Position numbers and translations under genes: made by a program
Virus record (IMG/VR): IMGVR_UViG_3300010397_000005
Coordinates: 1-64,000 of that record
Reading direction: 5' to 3' (one strand)
Source of the DNA: a virus
DNA length: 64,000 nt
Notes under the pieces: generated by a model
Seen by the model: only the letters and a program-made list of their open reading frames with translations
Database searches by the model: none
What the model was told of the DNA's origin: nothing
In this document: piece by piece, positions 15,024-63,292 of the stretch
Numbering within the stretch: the first letter of the stretch is position 1
Layout: each line of letters starts with the position of its first letter

Positions 15024-15494
15024 ATGCAGGATACCCTCACTACGCCAGCATGGCTCCAGACTGCTCTCGGGTGGCTAGCATCGTTTATTACAGGGGCCAC
15101 TATCTTCAAGCTGGTCGAGATTTGGCTCAATCGCAAGAAACCCGCCGCAGAACTCCATGTTACCCAAGCCACCGCTAACGAGATAACGGCCAGATCGAAC
15201 TGGACCGCCGGGGACGCCATTATGCGTATGATGACACGGCTGGACGAGGCGCAGACGACGATCGACAGGCTACGTAGTGAACGAGACGAGTGGGAGATGA
15301 AGGCGTTTGATTTACAAGTGGAATTGAAAGACTCGCGCACGGCCAATGGACTGCTGCTGTCACAAGCCAAGCTGGACAACTACTATATCCGCAAGCAGGC
15401 GGCGTTTATTGAAGCGCGGAGCTTGAAGGAGGAGTTTCTTAAGCTGGATGAAGTGAAGTGGAAGGAGCCTGCCAGCGGCGAGATTAATGAATAG
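15024..15494 (+). CDS. Membrane-anchored coiled-coil protein (spanin-like topology)
   Basis: This 156-residue protein has one hydrophobic segment near the N-terminus (WLQTALGWLASFITGATIF), a basic turn and a long coiled coil (about residues 55-110). That is the topology of inner-membrane spanins, but no outer-membrane partner or endolysin was found nearby, so the assignment is weak. It is the last + gene before a convergent - gene. Confidence 0.55.
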   Translation: MQDTLTTPAWLQTALGWLASFITGATIFKLVEIWLNRKKPAAELHVTQATANEITARSNWTAGDAIMRMMTRLDEAQTTIDRLRSERDEWEMKAFDLQVELKDSRTANGLLLSQAKLDNYYIRKQAAFIEARSLKEEFLKLDEVKWKEPASGEINE

Positions 15495-15545: not shown

Positions 15546-15791
15546 TCAATCATTATTCGGCGAACACCCGTTCGCTCTCACGCACATGGTCCACCACGTC
15601 TTCTCATCCAGTGCGCAATTCTCGGTACTGCCGCCGCCGGAGATGCAGGCGTTGTAGATCGAGGCTGACGCCTCCCCGCAGGTCCAGCGCACTTCGTTGC
15701 AGTCTTCGCAGTGCGCGGCAGGAGTGGTTGAAGTTAGTGATAAGCCAGCGATGGCGAGCAGCATGAACAGGGTTAGGATTAGTTTTCGCAT
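15546..15791 (-). CDS. Secreted cysteine-rich small protein
   Basis: The 81-residue product has a classic signal peptide (basic MRK, a hydrophobic core of about 17 residues, then an Ala-rich cleavage region). The mature part of about 55 residues holds seven cysteines in a spaced pattern (HCEDC, WTC, NAC, ENC, MC, GC), suggesting a disulfide-linked exported protein. AAAGGA lies 8 bases upstream. It is read against the late genes and is set apart by 142 bases from the next - gene, as expected of a moron that brings its own promoter. The function is unknown. Confidence 0.7.
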   Translation of the reverse strand: MRKLILTLFMLLAIAGLSLTSTTPAAHCEDCNEVRWTCGEASASIYNACISGGGSTENCALDEKTWWTMCVRANGCSPNND

Positions 15792-21860: not shown

Positions 21861-22835
21861 TCAAACTTCGATCTCAAACTCCGCCTGCTCGACTACCTTT
21901 GTCGCCGAGCACTCGCCGTCGTGGCCCAGTTGCAGCGCACAGTGCTCGTCAGCGTCGAGTAGCGCGTCACAGGCTTGATAGTACTGGATGCGAATCAACT
22001 CGCGATCGTCCTGCGACTGCCACTCCGGCTCGTCATCCCACACCCACCCCGCCTTGCAGATCGGCCTGTACTGGCAGCGCCAGCAGGAGTCGGTGTTTGT
22101 GCGCCAGAAACCAGCCGCTCGACTGCGCTCGATGTCTGCGATCCACGCCGCTCGACTGGCACGCTCGTACTCGATCTGTTCAGTTCTCCGATTGAACGTC
22201 TGCCGCTCGAAGTTGCACCAGAACCCGGCCACGGGTGCGTTCTTGCTCGCCTTCTGGTTAAACCGGAACGAGATGGCGTTAATGATAAACCCCTCGATTG
22301 GGCCATACTTACTGGAGCCGTAGTCGAGATAGTGCGTGATCTGGCTGTTCGGCTCAAACCGCTCCCAGTACTTGTAGTTGAGGTACTGACCTGTGGTCTT
22401 GTGGTCCATTAGGTAGATGCCACCGTGCGCCAGGTTCTCCAGTACGATGTCCGGCCTCACGCTCCACGGGTCATCGCTCCGGGTTTCGATCTCCAGTACT
22501 CGCCACTGCCTGTCGTCCACCGCCCAGCGCTTCACGTACTCGCGTAGCGCCGTAATGCCGTTCTGGCGCGTCTTTGCCTTATCGTTCATGTCCAGTTGGC
22601 GTGGGTAGTGGGCCAGAAACGCATCCTGCGCCTCACGCAGCGTCCCGCCTCGGTAGACCACTTCCAGCCCCTTGTGAAAGGCATGTCCGTAGCGCAGGTG
22701 GTGGTCCCCGGTTTCGTCGTCCAGCGCGCGCAGTTGCAGATCCCAGAAGAAGCGGTACTGTAAGGGACAGTTTTTGTAAGACTGGAGCTGGCTGTTTGAG
22801 TAGGCCGTAGTTGAACTGTGCTGGGGGATCGTCAT
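21861..22835 (-). CDS. Cas4/RecB-like PD-(D/E)XK exonuclease
   Basis: The 324-residue protein has YSNSQLQSYKNCPLQYRF near its start, RYGHAFHKGLE, a catalytic RPDIVLE...YLMDHKTTG (D then D-x-K) and a C-terminal Cys triplet (CWRCQYRPIC). With the first Cys near residue 22 these could hold a 4Fe-4S cluster, as in Cas4 and AddB. It probably resects DNA ends for the neighbouring ATPase. The start was set at ATG 22835, because the GTG at 22847 lies inside the promoter -10 box. The mRNA appears leaderless. Confidence 0.8.
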   Translation of the reverse strand: MTIPQHSSTTAYSNSQLQSYKNCPLQYRFFWDLQLRALDDETGDHHLRYGHAFHKGLEVVYRGGTLREAQDAFLAHYPRQLDMNDKAKTRQNGITALREYVKRWAVDDRQWRVLEIETRSDDPWSVRPDIVLENLAHGGIYLMDHKTTGQYLNYKYWERFEPNSQITHYLDYGSSKYGPIEGFIINAISFRFNQKASKNAPVAGFWCNFERQTFNRRTEQIEYERASRAAWIADIERSRAAGFWRTNTDSCWRCQYRPICKAGWVWDDEPEWQSQDDRELIRIQYYQACDALLDADEHCALQLGHDGECSATKVVEQAEFEIEV

Positions 22836-22845
22836 AGCGAGAGGC

Positions 22846-22874
22846 ACTTTACACGAGCGTCAACTCGATGTCAA
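22846..22874 (-). promoter_or_regulatory. Sigma70-type promoter of the leftward recombination operon
   Basis: The box TTGACA (22869-22874), a 17-base spacer and TAAAGT (22846-22851) are read leftwards. The start codon of the nuclease begins 10 bases after the -10 box, so the transcript should have a leader of only a few bases. Confidence 0.7.
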
Positions 22875-22902
22875 TAGGTAAATCGTTAAATCTGAAAATA
22901 AG

Positions 22903-22930
22903 TTGACAGTAGTGGAAATCCGCGTAGAAT
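22903..22930 (+). promoter_or_regulatory. Sigma70-type promoter of the rightward HTH/helicase genes
   Basis: TTGACA (22903-22908), a 16-base spacer and TAGAAT (22925-22930) are read rightwards. The HTH gene's ATG begins 9 bases after the -10 box, so this mRNA also appears leaderless. It is back-to-back with the leftward promoter. Confidence 0.75.
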
Positions 22931-22939
22931 ACCTGCGCA

Positions 22940-23152
22940 ATGATGGAATACTGTACAATCAAAGGCGGCGCAGAGATTCTAAAGGTTTCCCGGCCCACGG
23001 TCTACAAGTTTATTTCCGAGGGGAAGCTGGGCGTGTATCACGTGTTGGGACGGCCCGCGCTGAAGCTGACGGAAGTTAACCGAGTAGCACGCATCAGGGC
23101 AAAACGGGCTAAGAAGTCTAACCAGAACAGTAACGGTAATGGCTACAGATAA
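22940..23152 (+). CDS. Helix-turn-helix (excisionase-like) DNA-binding protein
   Basis: The 70-residue product has an EYCTIKGGAEILKVSRPTVY helix-turn-helix of the MerR/excisionase type followed by a short wing and a very basic tail. ATG codons occur at 22940 and 22943, with no ribosome site. It is the first gene of the rightward replication unit and probably binds near the divergent promoters, which is inference. Confidence 0.75.
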   Translation: MMEYCTIKGGAEILKVSRPTVYKFISEGKLGVYHVLGRPALKLTEVNRVARIRAKRAKKSNQNSNGNGYR

Positions 23153-40592: not shown

Positions 40593-40862
40593 TTATTCAG
40601 CCGTTCTGAAATAATTTGCGGGCAATAGCGTCACGACGGGTTTGGCTCTTAGCTCAGGCCTAAACTCGGAACCGTTGACTAGCGACATATAAGGTGCTTC
40701 TCTGTCGCTCGTGGCCCACACTGTCTGCGGTAGCTGGTACATGTCGGCGTCTACTTTAGCGCCAACCATGGCCGTGTGAAGCGCGTCCTGCGCTTTTGTC
40801 AGCTTGTATGACTGTGATCTCCTGCCAGTTGTGAATTGCGTATGCAGTGTTGTTTTTGTCAT
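40593..40862 (-). CDS. Hypothetical protein, 89 residues
   Basis: The start was set at ATG 40862, seven bases after a -10 box, so the mRNA appears leaderless. The product is mixed alpha/beta with a helical SYKLTKAQDALHTAMVG stretch. It is divergent to the RHH gene. Confidence 0.6.
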   Translation of the reverse strand: MTKTTLHTQFTTGRRSQSYKLTKAQDALHTAMVGAKVDADMYQLPQTVWATSDREAPYMSLVNGSEFRPELRAKPVVTLLPANYFRTAE

Positions 40863-40869
40863 ACCTCGC

Positions 40870-40898
40870 ACCCTACTATCATTGTCTAGCGTTGTCAA
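40870..40898 (-). promoter_or_regulatory. Leftward promoter, leaderless type
   Basis: TTGACA (40893-40898), 17 bases, TAGGGT (40870-40875), seven bases before the start codon. The upstream ATGCTTGACA decamer is identical to that of the divergent promoter. Confidence 0.65.
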
Positions 40899-40945
40899 GC
40901 ATAATCTCAATTATTTCACCGTTCAAGTTGACCGCTAATAAATGC

Positions 40946-40974
40946 TTGACATAGATTGACGACTAGTGTAGTCT
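40946..40974 (+). promoter_or_regulatory. Rightward promoter, leaderless type
   Basis: TTGACA (40946-40951), 17 bases, TAGTCT (40969-40974), ten bases before the RHH gene's ATG. It faces the leftward promoter across about 50 bases. Confidence 0.65.
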
Positions 40975-40984
40975 GTGCCTCGAC

Positions 40985-41146
40985 ATGGCGACAACGACTA
41001 AGGACAAAATGTTATTCGCCCGCGTGGAAGAGGCACTAATTCGGCGACTTAAACGGGTAGCGAAACAGATCGACCGCCCGCCTTCATGGGTAGTGAGGGA
41101 AGCGGTGAAGGCTGAATTGGATCGAATCGAAGGCAAGGTCAAATGA
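40985..41146 (+). CDS. 53-residue ribbon-helix-helix repressor-like protein
   Basis: The product has KDKMLFARVEEALIRRLKRVA then DRPPSWVVREAVKAEL, the strand-helix-helix pattern of CopG/MetJ-type regulators. It probably binds as a dimer to the divergent promoter region, controlling itself and the gene at 40862. The stop overlaps the GIY-YIG gene's start (ATGA). Confidence 0.75.
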   Translation: MATTTKDKMLFARVEEALIRRLKRVAKQIDRPPSWVVREAVKAELDRIEGKVK

Positions 41147-48516: not shown

Positions 48517-48548
48517 ACAATATATTGTACACTCGTCGATTTTGTCAA
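48517..48548 (-). promoter_or_regulatory. Promoter with perfect palindrome over the -10 box
   Basis: TTGACA (48543-48548), 18 bases, TATATT (48519-48524), read leftwards. The perfect 12-base palindrome ACAATATATTGT (48517-48528) covers the -10 box and could be an operator. The gene at 48484 starts about 28 bases after the expected transcription start. Confidence 0.6.
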
Positions 48549-48568
48549 GTGCTGTATACTGCGCGTTG

Positions 48569-49906
48569 ATGAGCGACGATCTCAACCTCCCCCCATCCCT
48601 CCGTCTCAAGCACCTCTGGCCCATCGAGGACAAGCTGGAGGACGCGCGGCGACAACTAGCGAAGTCGGGCGGATTAGGCAACGTTATCGTCGATCTCCCC
48701 AGTCCTCATGCCAAGCAGGAATTGTTCATCGATAGCCAAGCCAAGCGCATCATCGTCCGCGCAGGTCGTCGTGGCGGGAAGACTGTTGGGATTGCGATTC
48801 GTGCGGTGCGCAAGTTCCTCGCCGGAAAACGCGTGCTCTACGCCGCGCCGACACAAGAGCAGATCGATCGTTTCTGGGTGACGGTTACGCGGGCGCTGGC
48901 CGATCCAATTGAGAAAGGCAAGATTCACAAAAACGAAACTCGCCACACGCTGGAGATCCTCGGTTCTGAGCGTCGTATTCGTGCTAAAACCGCTTGGAAT
49001 GCCGACTCCCTGCGCGGCGACTACGCCGACGAGCTAATCCTCGACGAGTGGCAACTGATGAACGAGGACGCGTGGGGCGTGGTTGGTGCGCCTATGCTGC
49101 TCGACAACAACGGCGACGCAGTCTTCATCTATACGCCGCCCAGTCTTAAATCGCGCAGCGTGAGTAAGGCAACCGATCCGCAGCACGCCGCCAAGATGTA
49201 CCGCCGCGCGCAGATGGACAAATCAGGACGCTGGGAATCGTTCCACTTCTCATCCTTCGACAACCCGCACATTCCCGCCGAGGCTGTTAGCGAGCTGGCG
49301 GAAGACATGAGCGCTCTGGCCTATCGCATGGAGATTATGGCCGAGGACATCGACGAAGCGCCGGGAGCGCTCTGGACGCGCGGGTTGATTGAGAAACAGC
49401 GACTGAAATCAGACGTGAGCGACGATATGGAACGAATCGTCGTGGCGATAGATCCATCTGCTACCAGTACTGGAGACGAGGCTGGGGTCGTTACAGTTGG
49501 ACGAGTAAAGAAGAACGGTTACGTACTATCCGATGACAGCGTGCAGGGCTCGCCGAAAACATGGGCCACCGCCGCGGTTAACGCCTATCACGCGTGGAAG
49601 GCTGACTGCATTGTTGCCGAGTCTAATAACGGCGGCGAGATGGTGGCGCTGACGGTGGCGACGGTTGATCCGAACATCAAGGTCAAACTGGTCCATGCGT
49701 CCCGCGGTAAACAAACGAGAGCCGAACCCATTGCTTCGCTGTACGAGCACGCGCGGATCTGGCACGCAGGAAACTTCCCGTTACTGGAAGATGAAATGTG
49801 TCTCTGGCAACCGGGTGCAGGGAATAGTCCAAATCGGTTAGATGCGCTGGTGTGGGGGTTGACTGAAGTAATGCTGAACGAAAAGAGGAAGGTGCTCTAT
49901 GCGTAG
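48569..49906 (+). CDS. terL: Terminase large subunit
   Basis: The start was taken at ATG 48569, eight bases after a TATACT box, rather than the TTG 27 bases upstream. The 445-residue protein has Walker A RAGRRGGKT near residue 60, Walker B ELILDEWQ near residue 145, and the RNase H-like nuclease with VAIDPSAT and a late Asp (NRLDALVWGL). It cuts and translocates DNA into the head. Confidence 0.93.
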   Translation: MSDDLNLPPSLRLKHLWPIEDKLEDARRQLAKSGGLGNVIVDLPSPHAKQELFIDSQAKRIIVRAGRRGGKTVGIAIRAVRKFLAGKRVLYAAPTQEQIDRFWVTVTRALADPIEKGKIHKNETRHTLEILGSERRIRAKTAWNADSLRGDYADELILDEWQLMNEDAWGVVGAPMLLDNNGDAVFIYTPPSLKSRSVSKATDPQHAAKMYRRAQMDKSGRWESFHFSSFDNPHIPAEAVSELAEDMSALAYRMEIMAEDIDEAPGALWTRGLIEKQRLKSDVSDDMERIVVAIDPSATSTGDEAGVVTVGRVKKNGYVLSDDSVQGSPKTWATAAVNAYHAWKADCIVAESNNGGEMVALTVATVDPNIKVKLVHASRGKQTRAEPIASLYEHARIWHAGNFPLLEDEMCLWQPGAGNSPNRLDALVWGLTEVMLNEKRKVLYA

Positions 49907-50747: not shown

Positions 50748-51575
50748 TTACTTGCCCTCGTCTCGCTTCTCAGCAATTACCGTATTCTTCTTTCGGTTCG
50801 TTTCCACTGATTTTAGGGGTGCGAATTTCCAGCATTTACCGCATTGCCGAGGCTGCTCTACTCGTGGAATAAAGCGATGACCGCAGTGCCTGCACGTGGC
50901 GTAAACCAATTTAACCATAGGAGAAGAATCTATATCCTCTGTAGTATTTAGCGTATCAATTTGTACAATATCTTGCAAGTCCTTTCTTGTCGCTCGTATC
51001 GAGCGTCGCTTTTTAGTTGTACGCTTGGAGCGATGTAGACCAATTGTCGAGTCTTTCTCGAGATAGTTGATCACTTTACGAAGTACGTCTGGATCGTCGT
51101 TAAACTTTCCTATTGAGGTGTTACAGTGAACACATAACAAGCCGCGAACGTGTCCGGTTTTTGGGTTATGATCTACTGCTAAAGGGCGACTTTTCTGAGG
51201 CTTTCCGCAAATAGCACAGCCGCCACCTTGCGCGACTCGTAATTGCTCATATTCAGCGTCGGTGATTCCGTATTCATGCCAGCGCCGTCCCATCGACTTT
51301 GACTGAGCGGTTCGGACGGGAGAGCAGGCAATGCAGACAAACCGTGATCTTCCGTTACCGTTACCGCGAGGTTTACGACACCTGTCGCAGAGATTCGCTG
51401 CCCTATTTCGTATTCGAGCGCGCTTCGCTGACGCGATGGTCTTGTTTGCGTGATTGCGGCAGAGTGTCCGTGTGCCATCTTCTCCGCGAGGCTTCCCACA
51501 CCGTAGGCATAAACCCAGTATTACGCGCTGTCTTTGAGCTGGGGATGGTCCCCTAGTTTTTCCCTCTATTGACAT
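50748..51575 (-). CDS. Recombination endonuclease VII-like protein
   Basis: The 275-residue product has two or three N-terminal zinc knuckles (LCLRCGKP, LCDRCRKP, CIACS) and then the endonuclease VII domain: YGITDAEYEQLRVAQGGGCAIC, LAVDHNPKTGHVRGLLCVHCNTSIG. It ends with CRHCG and CGKC. Endo VII cuts branched DNA. This one may be mobile, as such proteins often are, and lies beside a divergent regulator. Confidence 0.8.
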   Translation of the reverse strand: MSIEGKTRGPSPAQRQRVILGLCLRCGKPRGEDGTRTLCRNHANKTIASAKRARIRNRAANLCDRCRKPRGNGNGRSRFVCIACSPVRTAQSKSMGRRWHEYGITDAEYEQLRVAQGGGCAICGKPQKSRPLAVDHNPKTGHVRGLLCVHCNTSIGKFNDDPDVLRKVINYLEKDSTIGLHRSKRTTKKRRSIRATRKDLQDIVQIDTLNTTEDIDSSPMVKLVYATCRHCGHRFIPRVEQPRQCGKCWKFAPLKSVETNRKKNTVIAEKRDEGK

Positions 51576-51598
51576 TTGTTTCTTAGGTAGACTATACT
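51569..51598 (+). promoter_or_regulatory. Leaderless promoter of the XRE regulator
   Basis: TTGACA (51569-51574), 18 bases, TATACT (51593-51598), seven bases before the ATG at 51606. The -35 box overlaps the start codon of the divergent endonuclease gene. The CTATTGACAT context matches the promoter at 22.87 kb. Confidence 0.7.
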
Positions 51599-51605
51599 AC
51601 ATTCT

Positions 51606-51806
51606 ATGAAACTCGGAAAGATAATTCGCAGGTATCGTGTAACCAGCGAACTAACCCTGCGTGATGTCGGTAAGGAGATTGGCATCGGTGCGGCGACATT
51701 GATGCGCTTGGAGCAGGGACGGGAGCCGGACGGGATTACGCTGGCGAAAGTGTTGGGCTGGCTGATGTCGCCGGAGGCGAACGGCACGCGGAAGGAGCGT
51801 AAATGA
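51606..51806 (+). CDS. XRE-family (Cro/CI-like) helix-turn-helix protein
   Basis: The 66-residue product has LGKIIRRYRVTSELTLRDVGKEIGIGAATLMRLEQGREP, a complete XRE helix-turn-helix with no other domain, as in Cro. Its ATG lies at the expected transcription start. It overlaps the next gene by ATGA and is the first gene of a five-gene cassette. Confidence 0.8.
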   Translation: MKLGKIIRRYRVTSELTLRDVGKEIGIGAATLMRLEQGREPDGITLAKVLGWLMSPEANGTRKERK

Positions 51807-52030
51807 GTGAGAGGCCGACTGTATCTCTTAAGCAAGGTGTTAGCTGTATAGGCGTGCTGCTGGCTTTGCTTATACACACACCACTATGGTACTGGCTGGT
51901 TTATCAGATTCTTGTGAGAATCGACGCTACTCCGACAATGTGGGTCTTCTACTGGATCTATCTTCCGGTGGGGCTAGTACTGGCGTTTATTCGCGTTATC
52001 ACGGATGGTTTACTTGCAGAAAAGAAGTGA
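51803..52030 (+). CDS. Two-pass membrane protein, 75 residues
   Basis: The product has two hydrophobic segments (CIGVLLALLIHTPLWYWLVYQIL and WVFYWIYLPVGLVLAFI) with a short polar link and a basic tail. It overlaps the XRE gene by ATGA. A holin or an exclusion protein are possible roles. Confidence 0.6.
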   Translation: MSERPTVSLKQGVSCIGVLLALLIHTPLWYWLVYQILVRIDATPTMWVFYWIYLPVGLVLAFIRVITDGLLAEKK

Positions 52031-52047
52031 CAACGGAGGCTCGAGCA

Positions 52048-52212
52048 ATGAGTGAACGGGACGACGACATGACGGGCGGAGAGGTGGGCTGTGCGTTAGT
52101 GATCGCGGTGTTTTTACTTGTTCTGATGATTGTGATTATTGACAAGAAGAATGTTAGCGAGATTCGCGACCTCCAGCGGAGAGTGTCGCAATTAGAGAGC
52201 GAGAGACGATGA
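52048..52212 (+). CDS. Single-pass membrane coiled-coil protein, 54 residues
   Basis: GGAGG precedes the ATG. After an acidic head (SERDDDMTGGE) come a segment GCALVIAVFLLVLMIVII and a coiled coil (VSEIRDLQRRVSQLESE). It overlaps the SLOG gene by ATGA. It is small but well packed. Confidence 0.6.
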   Translation: MSERDDDMTGGEVGCALVIAVFLLVLMIVIIDKKNVSEIRDLQRRVSQLESERR

Positions 52213-52625
52213 TTTGTCGATGCAATTGCCATGCGGAACACTTTAGCCGAGCAACGTGCTCGCACTGCTACCCGCTTGTGCTGTTCTGTGGTTCGCGGTC
52301 GTGGGACAACCAGCGACTGGTAGATCGTCTTATGGTCCAACTGGGTAACTTGCTAAACTGGCGATTTCATGTAGTTCAGGGCGGGGCGCGCGGCGGTGAT
52401 GAGCAGGCGTGGCTGGCGGCAAAGAAGCTGAACGTTCCGGTGACAACCCTGAAAGCCGACTGGCGTAAGCACGGGAAGCGTGCCGGGTACTTGCGAAACA
52501 TCACCATGCTGGAAATGCAGCCGCAATACGTCGTGGCTTTGTGGGACGGCGTTAGTCGCGGCACGTTGCATACAATTGAGAAGGCTGTAGGGCTGTATCG
52601 GATACCGACGATGATTGTGGGGTAG
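52209..52625 (+). CDS. SLOG (YspA-like, DUF2493) nucleotide-binding protein
   Basis: The 138-residue product has an N-terminal Cys/His cluster (CRCNCHAEH, CSHC) and then LFCGSRSWDN, VVQGGARGGDEQAW, HGKRAGYLRN and VVALWDGVSRGT, the pattern of the YspA/YpsA branch of the SLOG superfamily, which binds nucleotides or their derivatives. Similar domains occur in conflict systems. The zinc cluster as an N-terminal fusion is unusual. Confidence 0.8.
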   Translation: MICRCNCHAEHFSRATCSHCYPLVLFCGSRSWDNQRLVDRLMVQLGNLLNWRFHVVQGGARGGDEQAWLAAKKLNVPVTTLKADWRKHGKRAGYLRNITMLEMQPQYVVALWDGVSRGTLHTIEKAVGLYRIPTMIVG

Positions 52626-52632
52626 CGATGAC

Positions 52633-52710
52633 ATGGAACTACGAGAACTATCAATCGGCTTCGCGCTGCTGGTCATCCTTGGCGTGATCGTTTACTGGTT
52701 ATCGAATTGA
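52633..52710 (+). CDS. 25-residue membrane protein
   Basis: The product is a short charged head (ELRELSIG) and one hydrophobic segment (FALLVILGVIVYWLS). It begins 8 bases after the SLOG gene stop. No strong ribosome site is visible, so support is modest. Confidence 0.35.
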   Translation: MELRELSIGFALLVILGVIVYWLSN

Positions 52711-52928: not shown

Positions 52929-55900
52929 ATGGCCGCAGCGGTACGCACCAGTGCAGTAGGCGGATCGTCTTCCGGGACCGGGAATCGTAACGCGACGATT
53001 ACCCCGGCGTCCGGCGACCTGCTTGTGGTCTATTGCTGCGTCGCGGCCAATACCAATGACACTCCTACCTGCTCTGACGATAACGGCTCCGGCACTTACG
53101 ATCTGATCGAGACGATGAATTTCGCCATTTCTGGCGTGAACTATCGCATGAGCGTGTTCATCCGCACGGCGCTGATGGTTAATACGACTTCGACGGTAGT
53201 GACGGTGGCGACGGGAAGTAACAGTTCGGGCGCGGTCCACGTGCTCGCCATCACTGGAGTCACTCGCACTGGGGCCAACGCAGTTCGTTCCTCTGGCTCG
53301 CAGAACAACCAAGCCGCCGCTACTGCCGCGCCAACGCTTAATCAAGCGGCGCTCACTCTCAACCCCACTCTCGTCGCGCACGGCTCAGCCGACACGACCA
53401 CTACCCCGCCCACCAACTGGACTGAGATTCAGGACACGAACTTCGCCAATGACACCGTGGCGCTGGAGACGGCGTTTCGCGCATCCGGCTTCACGGGCAC
53501 GACGATTACTTTCGGCGCGGCGTCTTCGACTCAATTCTGTTCGCACGCAATGGAGCTGGATACGACAGTCCTGCTCAGTCAGTCAGCTTCGGACGATGTC
53601 AATAACCTCGCCGACGCGCGCGGGGTAGGCTATGGCAATCTCCATACCGACTCGTTCACGCTCTCGGACACGGCGCAGGTAGTGCTTGGCTACGTATTGA
53701 GTGCCAGCGATAACATAAACAATCTTGCGGACGGGACCGCACAAGTGGTCGGAATCATCACCTCGCTCGCCGACTCGCTGGCAACTCTCGCTGACGCTAA
53801 CGCGCGACTGCTCGGCTATCTCCTTGCTCTTGCTGATACGACCGCCGCGAACTGGGCGGACGCGCATCAGCTCTTACTCGCGCAACGCCTCGCCCTCGCC
53901 GACAACTCGTTCAACGCGGCGGATGCCGCAGTACTGCAACTTGACCAGCTTACCTTACTCGCTGACTCTTTCTCACTCGGCGATTCCGAATCTCACCTGC
54001 TCGCAATCACGCTCGACTTTTCCGATTCAATCGACAGCCTGGCTGACTCGGTTCGTTTTGAGCAGGGGTTGACCCTCGCGGACGCTGGCCCCTTCGTCGA
54101 ATCCGCGACTTCCACTCCCGCAAACGTCGTCTACCTCGATCCGGGCGGCGACGCTGTTCAGGCGACGGGTTATTTCAACGTTGCGGGCGGGTCAGGCACA
54201 CTCAACTTCGATTCTACCCGGCAAGTTGTGGGCATCGGTTCGTGGAAGTTCGACTCTGGTGGAGATAACAGTCTTACTCACGCGACGGTAAACGGCGTAT
54301 TGACTGATGGTCTGGGCAATAACAATCGGCGCATCAGTTTTTATTTTCGTTACGACTCAGTACCGGAAACGCTGACCACGATAGTACGAACACTGGAAGC
54401 GGCAGGTGGCCCGATTTTCTCGCTGGCGCTGCTTGATCGGGCCGGGGAAGTCGGGTTGAGGCTCACTACGGCGGTTGACTCCGTTGATAGCGTTGCGTCT
54501 CTTGCTCCGCATGAGTGGCACCGGATCAGCGTGGCCTATACCTTGCCCTCGGCTGATGATCTCTCGGTTAATGTATACTTTGATTCAATACTGGTCCTGA
54601 CACTTGCAAACGTCTCCACCGGTGGTTTATCTCCGGCCTCAAACTTTCGCTATGGCTGGATTGAACAGCCGGGCGCGGATCGGATCTGCTGGTTCGATCA
54701 AATCTACCTCGACGATGGCGGCGATCTAACCGATCCGGGCGACATCCGCAGCACCGCAAAACTCCCCGCCACCGTCAACGCTGACAACTTCGACACTACA
54801 GGCGGCACAGGCGCAGTCAACGAGCGTCCGGTAGACCTCACCAACTATCGCCAGCAAGCCGCCACCGCGCAAGTCCATCAAAACTACACGCTACAGACAG
54901 CCAGCGCCGGCGACGTGGATATTTCCAGTAAAACGATCGTCGGCTACATGGGTTGGGTGATCGCCAAGAAGTCCGGCTTCGGCGCTACGTTTGGCTTTAC
55001 CGTTAACGGTGTAACTACCGCAATTCAGCTTTCAACGACTCCTGCTTTTATAAAACTACCCGTTACCGACGCAGCCTACCCCAGTGACCCTGCCGGTATC
55101 GGAATGCGCAGCACTACGAGCAGCAACGACACTTTTCTCTATGAGTGCGGCGTCGTAGTAGCATTTCGGGAGACGCAGTCAGGACACGATGCAATCGCGC
55201 TGGGTTACGGCTTACTTACCAGCGACTCATTCGCCCTGACCGATGACTGCGTTACTCAACTGTACCAGCACCTCACCCTGTTCGATTCTCTCGACAACCT
55301 CGCCGACTCAATCATATTGCAACTCCACGAGGTCACAGGCGAGATCGTCCTCGAATTGGACGACGTGCTCGTGTTGGGCGACAGCGTAGACTTCCTGCTG
55401 GGTGAACTGGTCGAAGTCTCAAGCACGTTAATCCTGAGCGATAGCGTCACGGCCCAGTTAGACCACCTCGTCACATTCTCGGATTCGATCTTACCTGCCG
55501 ATAGCGAGTCCCATGTCCTCGGCTATGAGGAATCTGTCGTTGACGTGCTCTCGCTCACCGACGTGGAAGCCCACCTACTGGCCTACCTGCTCTCATTTAG
55601 TGAGACGGTCTCACTTGCAGATAGTCTCGCACTCAGCCCCGGACTGGCCTTGAGTGACAGCGTCGTCGCTTTCCTTGATGAAATCTCCCTGCAACTGGCC
55701 CACTTGTCCGGTTTCAGCGATTCGTTCTTACTTACCGACAGCGTCGTTATCGTCCTCGGTTACGAAGAGCGTGCGAGCGACGCCCTGTTGCTCGCTGATG
55801 CTGAGACGCGCCAAGTAGGCCAATTGCGCGCGTTTGCTGACTCGCTGGTCGTCACCGATGAAGTCGCACTTGGACTCGGGTTATTGCTCGCGGATAGTGT

Positions 55901-57302
55901 CACAACCCTCACTGATGCAATCTCGACTCAATTCCACCAACTCCTCGACTTCAGTGATTCGCTAATCCTCGCAGACAACGCATCGTTCCAACTTGGCTAC
56001 GAGCACCAATTCAGCGACTCGATCGATCTCACCGATAGTGAATTACACCAACTCAATCAACGCCTCGCGTTCACTGACTCGATCAACAACCTGAGCGATT
56101 CCCTGACACTGACTCTCGGCGCTGCACTCAATTTCACTGACTCACTCACACTCACTGATTCTCTCCAGCTAGGCTATGGTCTATTCCTTGCCGACGATAC
56201 CAATCTCTACATGGACGACATCCTCACTACTGCACCGCAGGGGCCACTGCGCCAAGTCGGGGTGACGGATGCGTTACAGGATCTCACTGATGAAGTTCAA
56301 CTGCGACTCAACTATTTACTCACAGTTGCAGATGATAGCGCGACGTTTGACGACTCAGTCTTACTACAACTGGGTTTCCTTGCGACTCTCAGTGACTCTT
56401 ATTCACTCGCCGACTCTCTTGCAGCTACTTTAGACTACCTGCAACCACTGGGCGATTCGCTTGCGTTGAGTGACGTGGTCCAATTGCGGCTGGGTTATGA
56501 GATTCCCACGTCAGACACGTTGCAACTGAGTGACCTCACTGCGCTCCGGCTCAGTTATCAGCTATCGACAGACGACTCGATCTTACTAGCTGATTCGATC
56601 TTTCTTGCGGCTGAACTGCGTTTCACGTCGAGCGATCTCATCTCACTAACCGATACTGAAGATGCAACGCTCGGTTATTGCACGTCACTGTCAGACTCTT
56701 TTGTACTCAACGACAGTGTTCAGCTTCGACTGGGATTTGAACTGGCAATCGTTGATACAATCTCGCTGAGCGATACTGAATCCACCTCTCTCACCTACCA
56801 CCTCCCACTTGCAGATAATGTCGCATTATTAGCTGATTCAGTCACTTTAACCCCCGGTTTGGGCCTCATTATCAGCGATAACGGGCCAGTCTTCACTGAG
56901 TCGATCTCCTTGTTTAGCACAGGCCGGTTGCAACTTGCCGACGCACTCGCGCTCGCTGATTCGCTCACAAAGTTTAGCGCAGGATTTATCCAGTTCGAGG
57001 ACACGCTTGCACTCACCGATAGCGTTGCCATCGACCTGCGCGGGCCGGACTTGGACGAAGTGCTCAGCGACGCGCTGCAACTCGCCGACGCAGTCTCGCT
57101 CTCCCTTAACGACGAACTGCGACTGGAGTTGCAACTCACTGATCTCGTCACGCTCTCAGACCACTATTTCGATCTCCGCTACCCCTATACCCCTAGCGCC
57201 AGACGACATATTGTAGTACCATCCCGCACAAGGGTGACGAGGCCAGTGAAGCGGAGTGGGATTATCGTGCCGTCGAGTGACAGGACAACGAGAGTTGAGT
57301 GA
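52929..57302 (+). CDS. Giant repeat protein with LamG-like domains (fibre or adhesin)
   Basis: The 1457-residue protein has an N-terminal beta-rich domain (residues 1-215), a first block of about seven 20-residue repeats (215-385), a LamG-like part (390-600), a further beta domain (600-755), and then a second block of roughly 30 repeats (757-1415) before a basic tail. Each repeat has the form x2-D-S-x2-L-x-D-S-x5-L-x-Y. It may be a beta-solenoid with Asp-ligated metal. It lies between the terminase and portal genes. A virion fibre role is inferred. Confidence 0.75.
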   Translation: MAAAVRTSAVGGSSSGTGNRNATITPASGDLLVVYCCVAANTNDTPTCSDDNGSGTYDLIETMNFAISGVNYRMSVFIRTALMVNTTSTVVTVATGSNSSGAVHVLAITGVTRTGANAVRSSGSQNNQAAATAAPTLNQAALTLNPTLVAHGSADTTTTPPTNWTEIQDTNFANDTVALETAFRASGFTGTTITFGAASSTQFCSHAMELDTTVLLSQSASDDVNNLADARGVGYGNLHTDSFTLSDTAQVVLGYVLSASDNINNLADGTAQVVGIITSLADSLATLADANARLLGYLLALADTTAANWADAHQLLLAQRLALADNSFNAADAAVLQLDQLTLLADSFSLGDSESHLLAITLDFSDSIDSLADSVRFEQGLTLADAGPFVESATSTPANVVYLDPGGDAVQATGYFNVAGGSGTLNFDSTRQVVGIGSWKFDSGGDNSLTHATVNGVLTDGLGNNNRRISFYFRYDSVPETLTTIVRTLEAAGGPIFSLALLDRAGEVGLRLTTAVDSVDSVASLAPHEWHRISVAYTLPSADDLSVNVYFDSILVLTLANVSTGGLSPASNFRYGWIEQPGADRICWFDQIYLDDGGDLTDPGDIRSTAKLPATVNADNFDTTGGTGAVNERPVDLTNYRQQAATAQVHQNYTLQTASAGDVDISSKTIVGYMGWVIAKKSGFGATFGFTVNGVTTAIQLSTTPAFIKLPVTDAAYPSDPAGIGMRSTTSSNDTFLYECGVVVAFRETQSGHDAIALGYGLLTSDSFALTDDCVTQLYQHLTLFDSLDNLADSIILQLHEVTGEIVLELDDVLVLGDSVDFLLGELVEVSSTLILSDSVTAQLDHLVTFSDSILPADSESHVLGYEESVVDVLSLTDVEAHLLAYLLSFSETVSLADSLALSPGLALSDSVVAFLDEISLQLAHLSGFSDSFLLTDSVVIVLGYEERASDALLLADAETRQVGQLRAFADSLVVTDEVALGLGLLLADSVTTLTDAISTQFHQLLDFSDSLILADNASFQLGYEHQFSDSIDLTDSELHQLNQRLAFTDSINNLSDSLTLTLGAALNFTDSLTLTDSLQLGYGLFLADDTNLYMDDILTTAPQGPLRQVGVTDALQDLTDEVQLRLNYLLTVADDSATFDDSVLLQLGFLATLSDSYSLADSLAATLDYLQPLGDSLALSDVVQLRLGYEIPTSDTLQLSDLTALRLSYQLSTDDSILLADSIFLAAELRFTSSDLISLTDTEDATLGYCTSLSDSFVLNDSVQLRLGFELAIVDTISLSDTESTSLTYHLPLADNVALLADSVTLTPGLGLIISDNGPVFTESISLFSTGRLQLADALALADSLTKFSAGFIQFEDTLALTDSVAIDLRGPDLDEVLSDALQLADAVSLSLNDELRLELQLTDLVTLSDHYFDLRYPYTPSARRHIVVPSRTRVTRPVKRSGIIVPSSDRTTRVE
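53575..54095 (+). repeat. First block of 20-residue D-S-x-L-D repeats
   Basis: About seven units of 60 bases encode Ala-rich versions of the repeat (LADSLATLADANARLLGY and others). The protein repeat is clear while the codons vary. Confidence 0.7.
55200..57170 (+). repeat. Second block of about 30 20-residue repeats
   Basis: Units such as LSDSYSLADSLAATLDYLQP, LGDSLALSDVVQLRLGYEIP and TSDTLQLSDLTALRLSYQLS follow each other exactly every 20 residues, with Asp at positions 3 and 9. Some units are shortened or disrupted near 56200 and 56900. The same motif occurs three times in the tail tip protein. Confidence 0.8.
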
Positions 57303-60528: not shown

Positions 60529-60680
60529 TGGATTATCAAGGCTTATACGAGGACGTTCTCGACATAGAATCCCGTGCTCGTGAAACAGGATTAGCCGAAC
60601 TCGCCCAAGAATGCTACGAGTTCCGCTTGGATATGTTACTTCGTTTTTATACTCCGATTGGGCATTACCGAATAAGCTAA
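60528..60680 (+). CDS. 50-residue hypothetical protein
   Basis: AAGGAG precedes the ATG, which overlaps the upstream stop (TGATG). The stop overlaps the portal start (TAATG). The product is helical and acidic in its first half and ends basic and aromatic. Confidence 0.6.
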   Translation: MDYQGLYEDVLDIESRARETGLAELAQECYEFRLDMLLRFYTPIGHYRIS

Positions 60681-63292
60681 TGGGCTTCCTAGACCGACTA
60701 TCATCAGCCATCAAGTCCCTCCGCTTCCCTGCGCCTGCCCCGCCCAACCTCGTCTCCGTCTTCCCGACATGGGCCGATTTCGATCAAGCTGTTAACCAAC
60801 TCCTCATCGGCTTCAAAGGAACGGGACGAGACTACGCCTCCGCCGTCGGTGATCTCACCATGTCATCGCTGATGATGGCCGCAGTTACCGCAGTCGGCAA
60901 TAGCGCCAGTGAAGCTGAACTCCAAGTGCGTGAGCAGCAAGGGAACGAGGAAGTCATCGTCGACGATCACGAACTGGTTAAACTCTGGTATCGGCCCAAC
61001 AACTTCTACGACGCCCCGACGATGATCAAAGCAGTGAGCACAAGCTGGGTCATCACTGATAACGCCTACATACGCAAGGAACGCAATGAGGAAGGGAGGG
61101 TCAAGGAACTCTGGTACGAGCCACACAACACGATCCGCGCAGTTTACCCCGCTGACGGTTCGGAATTTATTTCCAACTATGAAGTCCAGCGCGGCCCGGA
61201 CTGGCTGCCGATTCCTGTCACCGATGTCATCCATTTCCGCAATGGCCTAGACCCTGCCAACCCCCGCTACGGACTTGCGTCCACCCCCGCCATCTTCCGC
61301 GAGATCTTCGGTGACAACGAATCGGCGAACTGGTATGCGAACTTGATGGCGAATGACGCAGGGTTCAGGTACTTCCTCAGCATCGACAACAAAGCAGGCG
61401 AACTGGGGCAGGAAGACATCAACAATATCAAGAAGCTGCTGATGGCCCAGATCACGGGCGACAAGAAGTTCACGCCGCCTATCATCACCAACGCTGAGCC
61501 AAAGAAGTTGCAGTTCTCGCCGCAGGAGTTGGATTTGCGTTTGCAGCGTTATCTCGCTGAGGAGAGGTTCTGCGCGGTCAAGGGAATTCCCGGTACGGTG
61601 ATGGAGTTCGGATCGGCAGGGGAGCATTGTTTACCTGCGGATACTCGAATCAGTACGGTTGAGCGTGGGCCAGTGTCGATTAGGGACGTGCGGGTCGGTG
61701 ATTTGGTCTGGGCATTTGATCCTGACGGTTCACTTGTCCGGCGGCCTGTCACGTGGTCGGGCTTCACTGGGCGCAAGCAGTTGTTCAAACTGAAGGCACG
61801 CAATCGCACGATCTGGGCCAGTGGTAATCACCCGTTTCTAGTGCGCAAGCAGGAAAAAGTTGAAGCGCCTCGCATAGGCCATCGTCACAGTCCTGAATGG
61901 CGCTACTGGCTGGAGTGGGTGGCGCTGGAGAATTTGCAAGTCGGGGACAGAATTCTTGAAGTGCTCGCGCTGCCAGATACAGGTAAGACCGAGTTGCCGG
62001 ACGGAACTCCGGCCAGCGCTCAACTTATGCAGTGGTTGGGAGCGTTTGTGGGGGATGGGTGCTATCAAAGTGATTGCTATTTAACTTTATGTATCCCTAA
62101 AGAGGATCGGGTCAGGCGAGAATATTATTCCCTAACTCAAGGTTTGTTCACTAAGCAAGTTACACAATCGGGAGGTGGCCGATGGAATACTTTAATAGCG
62201 CTGTCTCCACAGTCTCTGGGTGTTGCGACTGCACCTGCGCACTTGAGGGAAACGAATAATGGCTTTAGTTTCTCGTCGAGACATACATTCCTCTGGTTAG
62301 AGCAAGCGGGATTCAAGCGCGGCGCGCGAAATAAGCACATACCTGAGTGGGTATTCGGGCTGACCGAAGAATTACGACTGGCATTTCTACGTGGAATGCT
62401 CGATACCGATGGTTCGGTTAGCAGGCGTGGTCATGCTGTGTGGAGATTGGCGAGTAGGCAATTAACTTACGACTTGTGGCATCTGTCGCTCGGGTTGGGT
62501 ATGAGCGTGTCAAATATCTACCACCTTCAGCAACCGAAGTCCTGCCTGCCGAACGAGGGTAGGCAAGAGTTCTACGATGCATGGCAATTCACAATCATGT
62601 CTGCGGAGGACGTGAGAAGAATCGGTTCCGAAGATCCGCTGTACGTCAAATACTTATCAGCGACTAATGAGAAGAAGCGAACCAACCGAGCCAGCCGTGG
62701 CGATCATATCCTGCCCGATTTCACTGCGACCGTTGCTATTCAATCAATTGAAGCTGGCCCAGAAGAAGATGTCTACGATCTCACTGTCGAAGGTGCGCAT
62801 AACTTCATCGCCGATGGCTTGACGGTACACAACAGCATTTACAACAATGTTTTTCAGAGTCAACAGCGTTTTACAAACAACTATCTCGCACCGTTCTGGA
62901 AACACATCGCGGAGACGTTGACACATAGTCTCCTTCGCGAATTCGACAACAAACCTAATCACTACGTCTTCTACGACACGGCTGATGTCAAAGCACTACA
63001 GGAAGACGAAAGCAGTCGTCACAAGCGCTGGCGAGAGGATTATTTAGGCGGAGGGATCACTCGGGCCGAGTATCGTCGAGCAATTGGACTGGACGCAACT
63101 GAAGCAGACGACGTATATTTCGTGCCGAGAGGTGGGGCGACACAGGCGAGAGATGCGGCAGCTCCGAAAAATGCAGCGGCTCCGGCGACTACGACTGCAA
63201 CCGCGAGTAGCAACGGGAACGGAATAGGCGATAACGGCACCAGTGGAGTAAAACCCAGTCCGGCGATTTCGACAGCGAGGTTGGTTTCGTGA
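60680..63292 (+). CDS. Portal protein interrupted by an intein
   Basis: The start is ATG at the TAATG junction. The 870-residue precursor has an N-terminal portal domain (KGTGRDYASAVGDL, LVKLWYRPNN, AYIRKERNEEG, DVIHFRNGLDPANPRYGLA) up to His316, an intein of 402 residues, and a portal C-terminus beginning SIYNNVFQSQQRFTNNYLAPF with a disordered Ala/Thr-rich tail. Spliced, it would be about 468 residues, normal for a portal. It forms the DNA gate of the head. Confidence 0.88.
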   Translation: MGFLDRLSSAIKSLRFPAPAPPNLVSVFPTWADFDQAVNQLLIGFKGTGRDYASAVGDLTMSSLMMAAVTAVGNSASEAELQVREQQGNEEVIVDDHELVKLWYRPNNFYDAPTMIKAVSTSWVITDNAYIRKERNEEGRVKELWYEPHNTIRAVYPADGSEFISNYEVQRGPDWLPIPVTDVIHFRNGLDPANPRYGLASTPAIFREIFGDNESANWYANLMANDAGFRYFLSIDNKAGELGQEDINNIKKLLMAQITGDKKFTPPIITNAEPKKLQFSPQELDLRLQRYLAEERFCAVKGIPGTVMEFGSAGEHCLPADTRISTVERGPVSIRDVRVGDLVWAFDPDGSLVRRPVTWSGFTGRKQLFKLKARNRTIWASGNHPFLVRKQEKVEAPRIGHRHSPEWRYWLEWVALENLQVGDRILEVLALPDTGKTELPDGTPASAQLMQWLGAFVGDGCYQSDCYLTLCIPKEDRVRREYYSLTQGLFTKQVTQSGGGRWNTLIALSPQSLGVATAPAHLRETNNGFSFSSRHTFLWLEQAGFKRGARNKHIPEWVFGLTEELRLAFLRGMLDTDGSVSRRGHAVWRLASRQLTYDLWHLSLGLGMSVSNIYHLQQPKSCLPNEGRQEFYDAWQFTIMSAEDVRRIGSEDPLYVKYLSATNEKKRTNRASRGDHILPDFTATVAIQSIEAGPEEDVYDLTVEGAHNFIADGLTVHNSIYNNVFQSQQRFTNNYLAPFWKHIAETLTHSLLREFDNKPNHYVFYDTADVKALQEDESSRHKRWREDYLGGGITRAEYRRAIGLDATEADDVYFVPRGGATQARDAAAPKNAAAPATTTATASSNGNGIGDNGTSGVKPSPAISTARLVS
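61628..62833 (+). mobile_element. LAGLIDADG intein in the portal gene
   Basis: The intein begins at Cys317 (CLPADTRI) and ends in HN followed by Ser as the +1 residue. Blocks seen: A with C1, B with SGNHPFLV, endonuclease motifs LGAFVGDG and FLRGMLDTDG, and block F/G with VYDLTVEGAHNFIADGLTVHN. So both splicing and homing parts look intact. The insertion site lies in the conserved portal core. Confidence 0.92.

Follow-up and report, generated by a model that had tools for sequence, protein, structure and literature searches.

The cassette at 51569-52710 of the window (the whole 64,000-nucleotide stretch that was analysed, which forms part of an uncultivated phage record of 72,933 bases) is best explained as a phage accessory, or "moron-like", operon, headed by a regulator gene and carrying an exchangeable cargo slot that is filled here by a SLOG gene. 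We assign this explanation a probability of approximately 0.6. The features by which accessory and moron genes are recognized were found at this locus: it has a consensus promoter of its own, its cargo is sporadic, and it lies outside the virion and replication core. The original prediction from this DNA had proposed that the regulator, the small membrane proteins and the SLOG protein together form a defense or exclusion module. Our results indicated that the regulator and the small membrane proteins belong to a real, recurring operon, and did not bear out the role of SLOG as its sensor.

Gene layout and promoter of the locus

On one side, the cassette is flanked by the gene for the large terminase (48542-49906) and a leftward gene of the endonuclease VII type (50748-51575), and on the other by the gene for a 1457-aa repeat protein (52929-57302). 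With 8 kb of the window as a nucleotide query, no match was obtained among named phages. All five of the previously proposed open reading frames were found at their predicted positions, and the features of the locus are as follows:

51569..51598, + strand: sigma-70-type promoter, TTGACA-18-TATACT, matching 11/12 consensus positions
51606..51806, + strand: XRE/Cro-CI type HTH regulator, 66 aa
51780..51799, + strand: 3' linker of the XRE gene, AACGGCACGCGGAAGGAGCG, which also holds the Shine-Dalgarno sequence of the next gene, from 3'-end comparison
51803..52030, + strand: two-pass membrane protein, 75 aa, starting in an ATGA overlap with XRE
52048..52212, + strand: TM-CC, a 54-aa single-span membrane protein with a C-terminal coil, belonging to a family that recurs in phages
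52162..52209, + strand: conserved C-terminal coil of TM-CC, IRDLQRRVSQLESERR, from the family alignment
52209..52625, + strand: SLOG protein (YspA-like, PF10686 / phrog_289), 138 aa, starting in an ATGA overlap with TM-CC
52633..52710, + strand: 25-aa hydrophobic ORF, uncertain as a gene and recognized by sequence only

Homologues back XRE, TM-CC and SLOG as genes. The two-pass protein had a near-neutral codon score, and a single-protein search of viral contigs revealed no close relative of it. The 25-aa ORF had a favorable codon score and no homologue, its hydrophobicity being the only other point in its favor. The ATGA overlaps that had been described for this unit were present at two of the four junctions, XRE/two-pass and TM-CC/SLOG; the other two junctions are gaps of 17 and 7 nt.

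The -10 element ends 7 nt before the ATG of XRE and there is no Shine-Dalgarno sequence. The description of this gene as leaderless is therefore reasonable, and the arrangement is kept in relatives. At background ORF starts, the leaderless promoter arrangement was found in 0 of 104 cases. About six leaderless starts were observed in the whole phage, versus 1.0 in shuffled sequences, indicating that this type of start is general in the phage; for this reason, we rejected the possibility that it is specific to the cassette. The leaderless starts at 22835-22943, 40862-40985, 47403 and 51606 include two divergent pairs, and at several of them the first product is a small DNA-binding protein (HTH_17, ribbon-helix-helix-like, XRE). 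Inspection by eye also revealed a GTAG-N6-CTAC palindrome that covers the -10 element and a TTAGACA sequence that recurs in relatives; as candidate operators, both are suggestive only.

TM-CC represents a family of small phage membrane proteins

A motif scan detected this short protein elsewhere, and we then applied a codon pattern for DLQRR[VI]xxLE to 2.9 million viral contigs. The codon pattern matched 38 stretches, 15 of which encode short single-helix proteins that end shortly after the motif. With the window included, the family comprises 15 distinct sequences on 16 phage contigs. A matched control pattern using the CTG leucine codon found 39 stretches and no TM-CC member. Thus, the family is specific, and its count, which depends on the codons that were chosen, is a minimum. 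Judged by sequence comparison, TM-CC is a previously undescribed family; Pfam and PHROGs contain no model for it, and the best sub-threshold matches were LapA_dom and phrog_33640, each with an E value of 0.03.

The ends of the protein are constant, mostly MSER or MSEQ at the start and IRDLQRRVxxLE at the end, and the membrane helix between them is variable. Several of the constant positions show synonymous codon variation, and some conservation at the nucleotide level is likely as well. Positive charge is usually greater on the C-terminal side, and the positive-inside count is consistent in most, not all, members. Of 19 records searched, only 5, the window's own included, have a terminase detectably related to that of the window, which argues against a link of TM-CC to a single packaging lineage.

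A leaderless regulator gene precedes TM-CC in most loci

This analysis covered the 14 TM-CC loci for which 2.2 kb or more of upstream DNA was available, and required a promoter with at least 9/12 consensus positions, a start codon 5-11 nt downstream of the -10 element and an ORF of at least 40 aa. In 10 of these 14, a leaderless promoter followed by a small first gene precedes TM-CC, as compared to a mean of 0.10 and a maximum of 1 in shuffled sequences. The first gene of these loci encodes an XRE protein in seven cases, a ribbon-helix-helix-like protein with weak RHH_5/Arc matches in two, and a GGxKGG-repeat protein in one. No leaderless promoter was detectable at this threshold in L194, L204 and L226, and that of L208 is weak.

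The genes around TM-CC differ among these phages. In one locus (L185), XRE is followed by a two-pass protein of 65 aa and then by TM-CC, as in the window; L185, L194 and L226 have other 2-TM proteins at the position of the 75-aa protein. The slot after TM-CC is occupied by unrelated genes in other phages. As a counterpart to the 25-aa ORF of the window, a 30-aa TM ORF lies behind TM-CC in L093. The closest sister locus, L204, precedes the same repeat protein (61-74% identical); it has TM-CC and encodes an 85-aa Cys-containing protein where the window has SLOG.

Comparison of the 3' ends of the first genes was informative as to how such differences may arise. The XRE gene of L180 and the ribbon-helix-helix gene of L208, which are not homologous, share an identical 3' stretch, GAGACGAACGGCGCGCGGAAGGAGCG, with the Shine-Dalgarno sequence of the next gene, and the linker in the window is a close version of it. 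Further upstream of TM-CC, identity is at the level of chance (0.25-0.27). The near-identical 3' ends and the chance identity beyond them point to the exchange of first genes at shared linkers.

The two consecutive small membrane proteins of the window might also be viewed as a lysis cassette, in which the two-pass protein and TM-CC would form a holin/antiholin or pinholin pair. Consistent with this idea, no holin, endolysin or spanin was recognized with Pfam or PHROGs anywhere in the 72.9-kb record, leaving its lysis genes to be assigned, and the 2-TM protein at the corresponding position in L226 has a sub-threshold LrgA match. However, no endolysin adjoins any of the loci inspected, the operon has its own promoter and a small gene resembling that of a repressor, conservation does not extend to the two-pass partner, and a coil-bearing membrane protein encoded after the tail genes (15024-15491) is a more usual candidate for this function. 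We consider a role in lysis to be unlikely.

SLOG is found apart from TM-CC in other phages

The YspA-like identity proposed for SLOG was confirmed by its match to the Pfam YAcAr/YspA family PF10686 (4e-10, 39.8 bits, curated cut-off 28.2) and by phrog_289 (6e-23). Structure prediction, which had been proposed as a check, gave a confident Rossmann fold with AlphaFold2 (pLDDT 91.7). A Foldseek search matched this fold to ShosA/DprA/LOG with a probability of 1.00, identifying it as being of the SMF/DprA-LOG type, and returned Cam1 as a weak match. The catalytic motif of LOG proteins, which are cytokinin riboside 5'-monophosphate phosphoribohydrolases, is PGGxGTxxE; in contrast, the consensus of the SLOG family, WDGxSKGTxHxI, lacks a conserved Glu there. 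The window protein shares the Pfam match, the DprA/LOG fold and the family's invariant residues with the YspA-like/YAcAr SLOG proteins of phages, from which it differs in its membrane-protein operon setting and in a unique N-terminal Cys/His extension. This extension, CxCxCH-x8-CxxC (C3, C5, C7, H8, C17 and C20), contains the Cys cluster noted originally; it is modeled with low confidence and has no counterpart in the 88 SLOG relatives inspected. The Cys cluster was therefore rejected as a feature of the SLOG family.

A single-protein search of viral contigs with SLOG found no relative. Several comparisons of loci bear on whether SLOG and the membrane genes form one unit that is kept together, as the original prediction had it. 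Membrane genes of this kind were not kept by SLOG homologues, a result that had been named beforehand as grounds for abandoning the module: TM-CC was found at 0 of 77 distinct SLOG loci, and membrane-protein neighbors of any kind were few (6/65 upstream and 3/68 downstream). Conversely, SLOG was found inside the operon at none of the 15 other TM-CC loci, and thus in 1 of 16 TM-CC operons overall; the single SLOG-like gene elsewhere in these contigs is approximately 6 kb away, in a different operon. Among 16 XRE/terminase relatives, none had a match above the PF10686 cut-off or to phrog_289, and one (G014) had a weak PF10686 match below the cut-off. In named phages, SLOG is mostly located among genes of nucleotide metabolism or genes of unknown function. 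Viral SLOG proteins have been described as typically standalone and posited to degrade or sense ADP-ribose-type immune signals, thereby countering immunity (PMC9503650). Because the loci do not co-occur, L204 differs, and viral SLOG has been described as standalone, we treat SLOG as independent cargo. It would be a one-off passenger of this operon, and a joint defense module is not supported by these comparisons.

An integrated defense or exclusion module, in which SLOG would make or sense a nucleotide signal, the membrane proteins would be the effectors and XRE would control them, is thus rather improbable. The tightness of the unit, with its TM-CC/SLOG overlap, the intact residues and confident fold of SLOG, and the existence elsewhere of nucleotide-gated membrane effectors such as Cam1 are in keeping with it. 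Against it stand the separate occurrence of SLOG and TM-CC and the gene neighborhoods of SLOG in named phages, and PADLOC-DB yielded only generic HTH matches for XRE and none for the other proteins. Thoeris ThsA and the SIR2-SLOG and TIR-SLOG systems have a SLOG domain in common with the window; unlike these, the window protein belongs to the YspA-like clade, consists of a single domain and lacks an effector domain, and no SIR2 or TIR domain was matched by Pfam in the cassette proteins or the other ORFs scanned.

The gene that follows XRE varies among relatives

Pfam matches to HTH_31 (6.4e-7) and HTH_3 (2.5e-5) verified the predicted XRE identity of the first gene product. Its homologues in related phage contigs are 35-79% identical, and most have the same type of promoter immediately 5' of the start codon; the exceptions (L181, L182, L183, L189 and L191) are distant XRE relatives in other contexts. 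The gene after XRE changes in nearly every relative and may encode a glycosyltransferase-like protein (directly after XRE in L179), a 59-aa soluble protein, a 62-aa 2-TM protein or a PAPS-reductase-like protein. XRE is followed by small membrane and signal-peptide proteins in L015, L177, L187 and L188, and by membrane proteins with TM-CC in L178, L180, L185 and L190. Small Cys-rich proteins with signal peptides recur in these phages (15549-15791 on the - strand of the window, 5872-6129 in L093, and in L213, L015, L187 and L190), often within XRE/TM-CC accessory loci; the L093 copy has no Pfam match.

A toxin-antitoxin system, with XRE as the antitoxin and the two-pass protein as a membrane toxin, would be consistent with the small XRE gene in first position, the 4-nt overlap and a promoter that could be autoregulated, but the partner after XRE is not conserved, as the conserved pair of a type II system would be, which makes this the least probable explanation by our estimate.

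Proposed function of the accessory operon

According to the accessory-operon explanation, the promoter, of the host sigma-70 type, would produce a leaderless mRNA. The first gene product, a small DNA-binding protein that is XRE in this phage, probably acts on its own promoter. Behind the regulator stand the small membrane proteins, above all TM-CC, with its one helix and a short C-terminal coil that is most likely cytoplasmic and through which it most likely multimerizes. The inner membrane is the most likely site of action of TM-CC, which, in the manner of superinfection exclusion proteins, would target the host envelope or the DNA that enters the cell. SLOG most likely functions alone and would bind or break a host nucleotide signal. 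For the membrane proteins, superinfection exclusion or envelope modification is our preferred inference because they are small, separately promoted, sporadic and without recognizable enzymatic domains. We regard as doubtful the reading that the locus is modular, with a constant leaderless promoter and TM-CC, and first gene and cargo swapped at linkers bearing Shine-Dalgarno sequences, such that TM-CC would serve as a membrane hub for counter-defense or exclusion cargos, here SLOG.

The protein Imm of phage T4 is very small and located in the membrane. TM-CC can be likened to Imm by size and location, each being a very small phage-encoded membrane protein. Imm is an example of the superinfection exclusion membrane proteins (PMC11436027); unlike it, TM-CC consists of one helix and a C-terminal coil, and its role in exclusion is putative. 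Phage accessory hotspots with exchangeable cargo, such as those of P2 and P4, share with the operon their variable cargo behind conserved elements and their compact accessory genes (PMC9122126). They differ from the present locus, where the conserved elements are found within the operon and consist of a leaderless promoter, a small regulator and TM-CC, where any anti-phage activity of the cargo would be hypothetical, and where no integrase was detected. A search of 24 related records revealed no tyrosine integrase, which counts against a moron expressed from a prophage; a lysogenic role is therefore unproven. Relatives of TerL in bacterial genomes were found on seven MAG contigs, none with XRE or TM-CC, and these identified no host or provirus.

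These findings replace a one-off guess of SLOG plus membrane effectors with a recurrent, testable unit. TM-CC is a tiny membrane protein with fixed ends and a free helix, found in phages with different packaging genes and behind interchangeable leaderless regulators. If it has an exclusion or envelope function, the short coil would be the obvious place to seek its target. Through the linkers at which regulators appear to be swapped, the reassembly of phage accessory operons can be viewed at the level of the sequence.

Genes flanking the operon and other phage genes

The endonuclease VII-type ORF (50748-51575, - strand) has a C-terminal zinc-ribbon, MVKLVYATCRHCGH..., which in the TM-CC operon of L204 occurs as a free-standing 56-aa gene on the TM-CC strand. 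The arrangement resembles the outcome of a fusion or inversion that followed insertion of the endonuclease. The 1457-aa protein contains degenerate LADxxxLxDS repeats; in other phages, the N-terminal part of approximately 220 residues shows 73-81% identity, and the repeat part diverges or is missing. An intein carrying LAGLIDADG and Hint/splicing domains interrupts the portal gene (60611-63292). In five related records (L060, L061, L062, L085 and L086), the terminase matches span about 2 kb versus 1.2 kb, suggesting an intein or intron inserted in the terminase gene.
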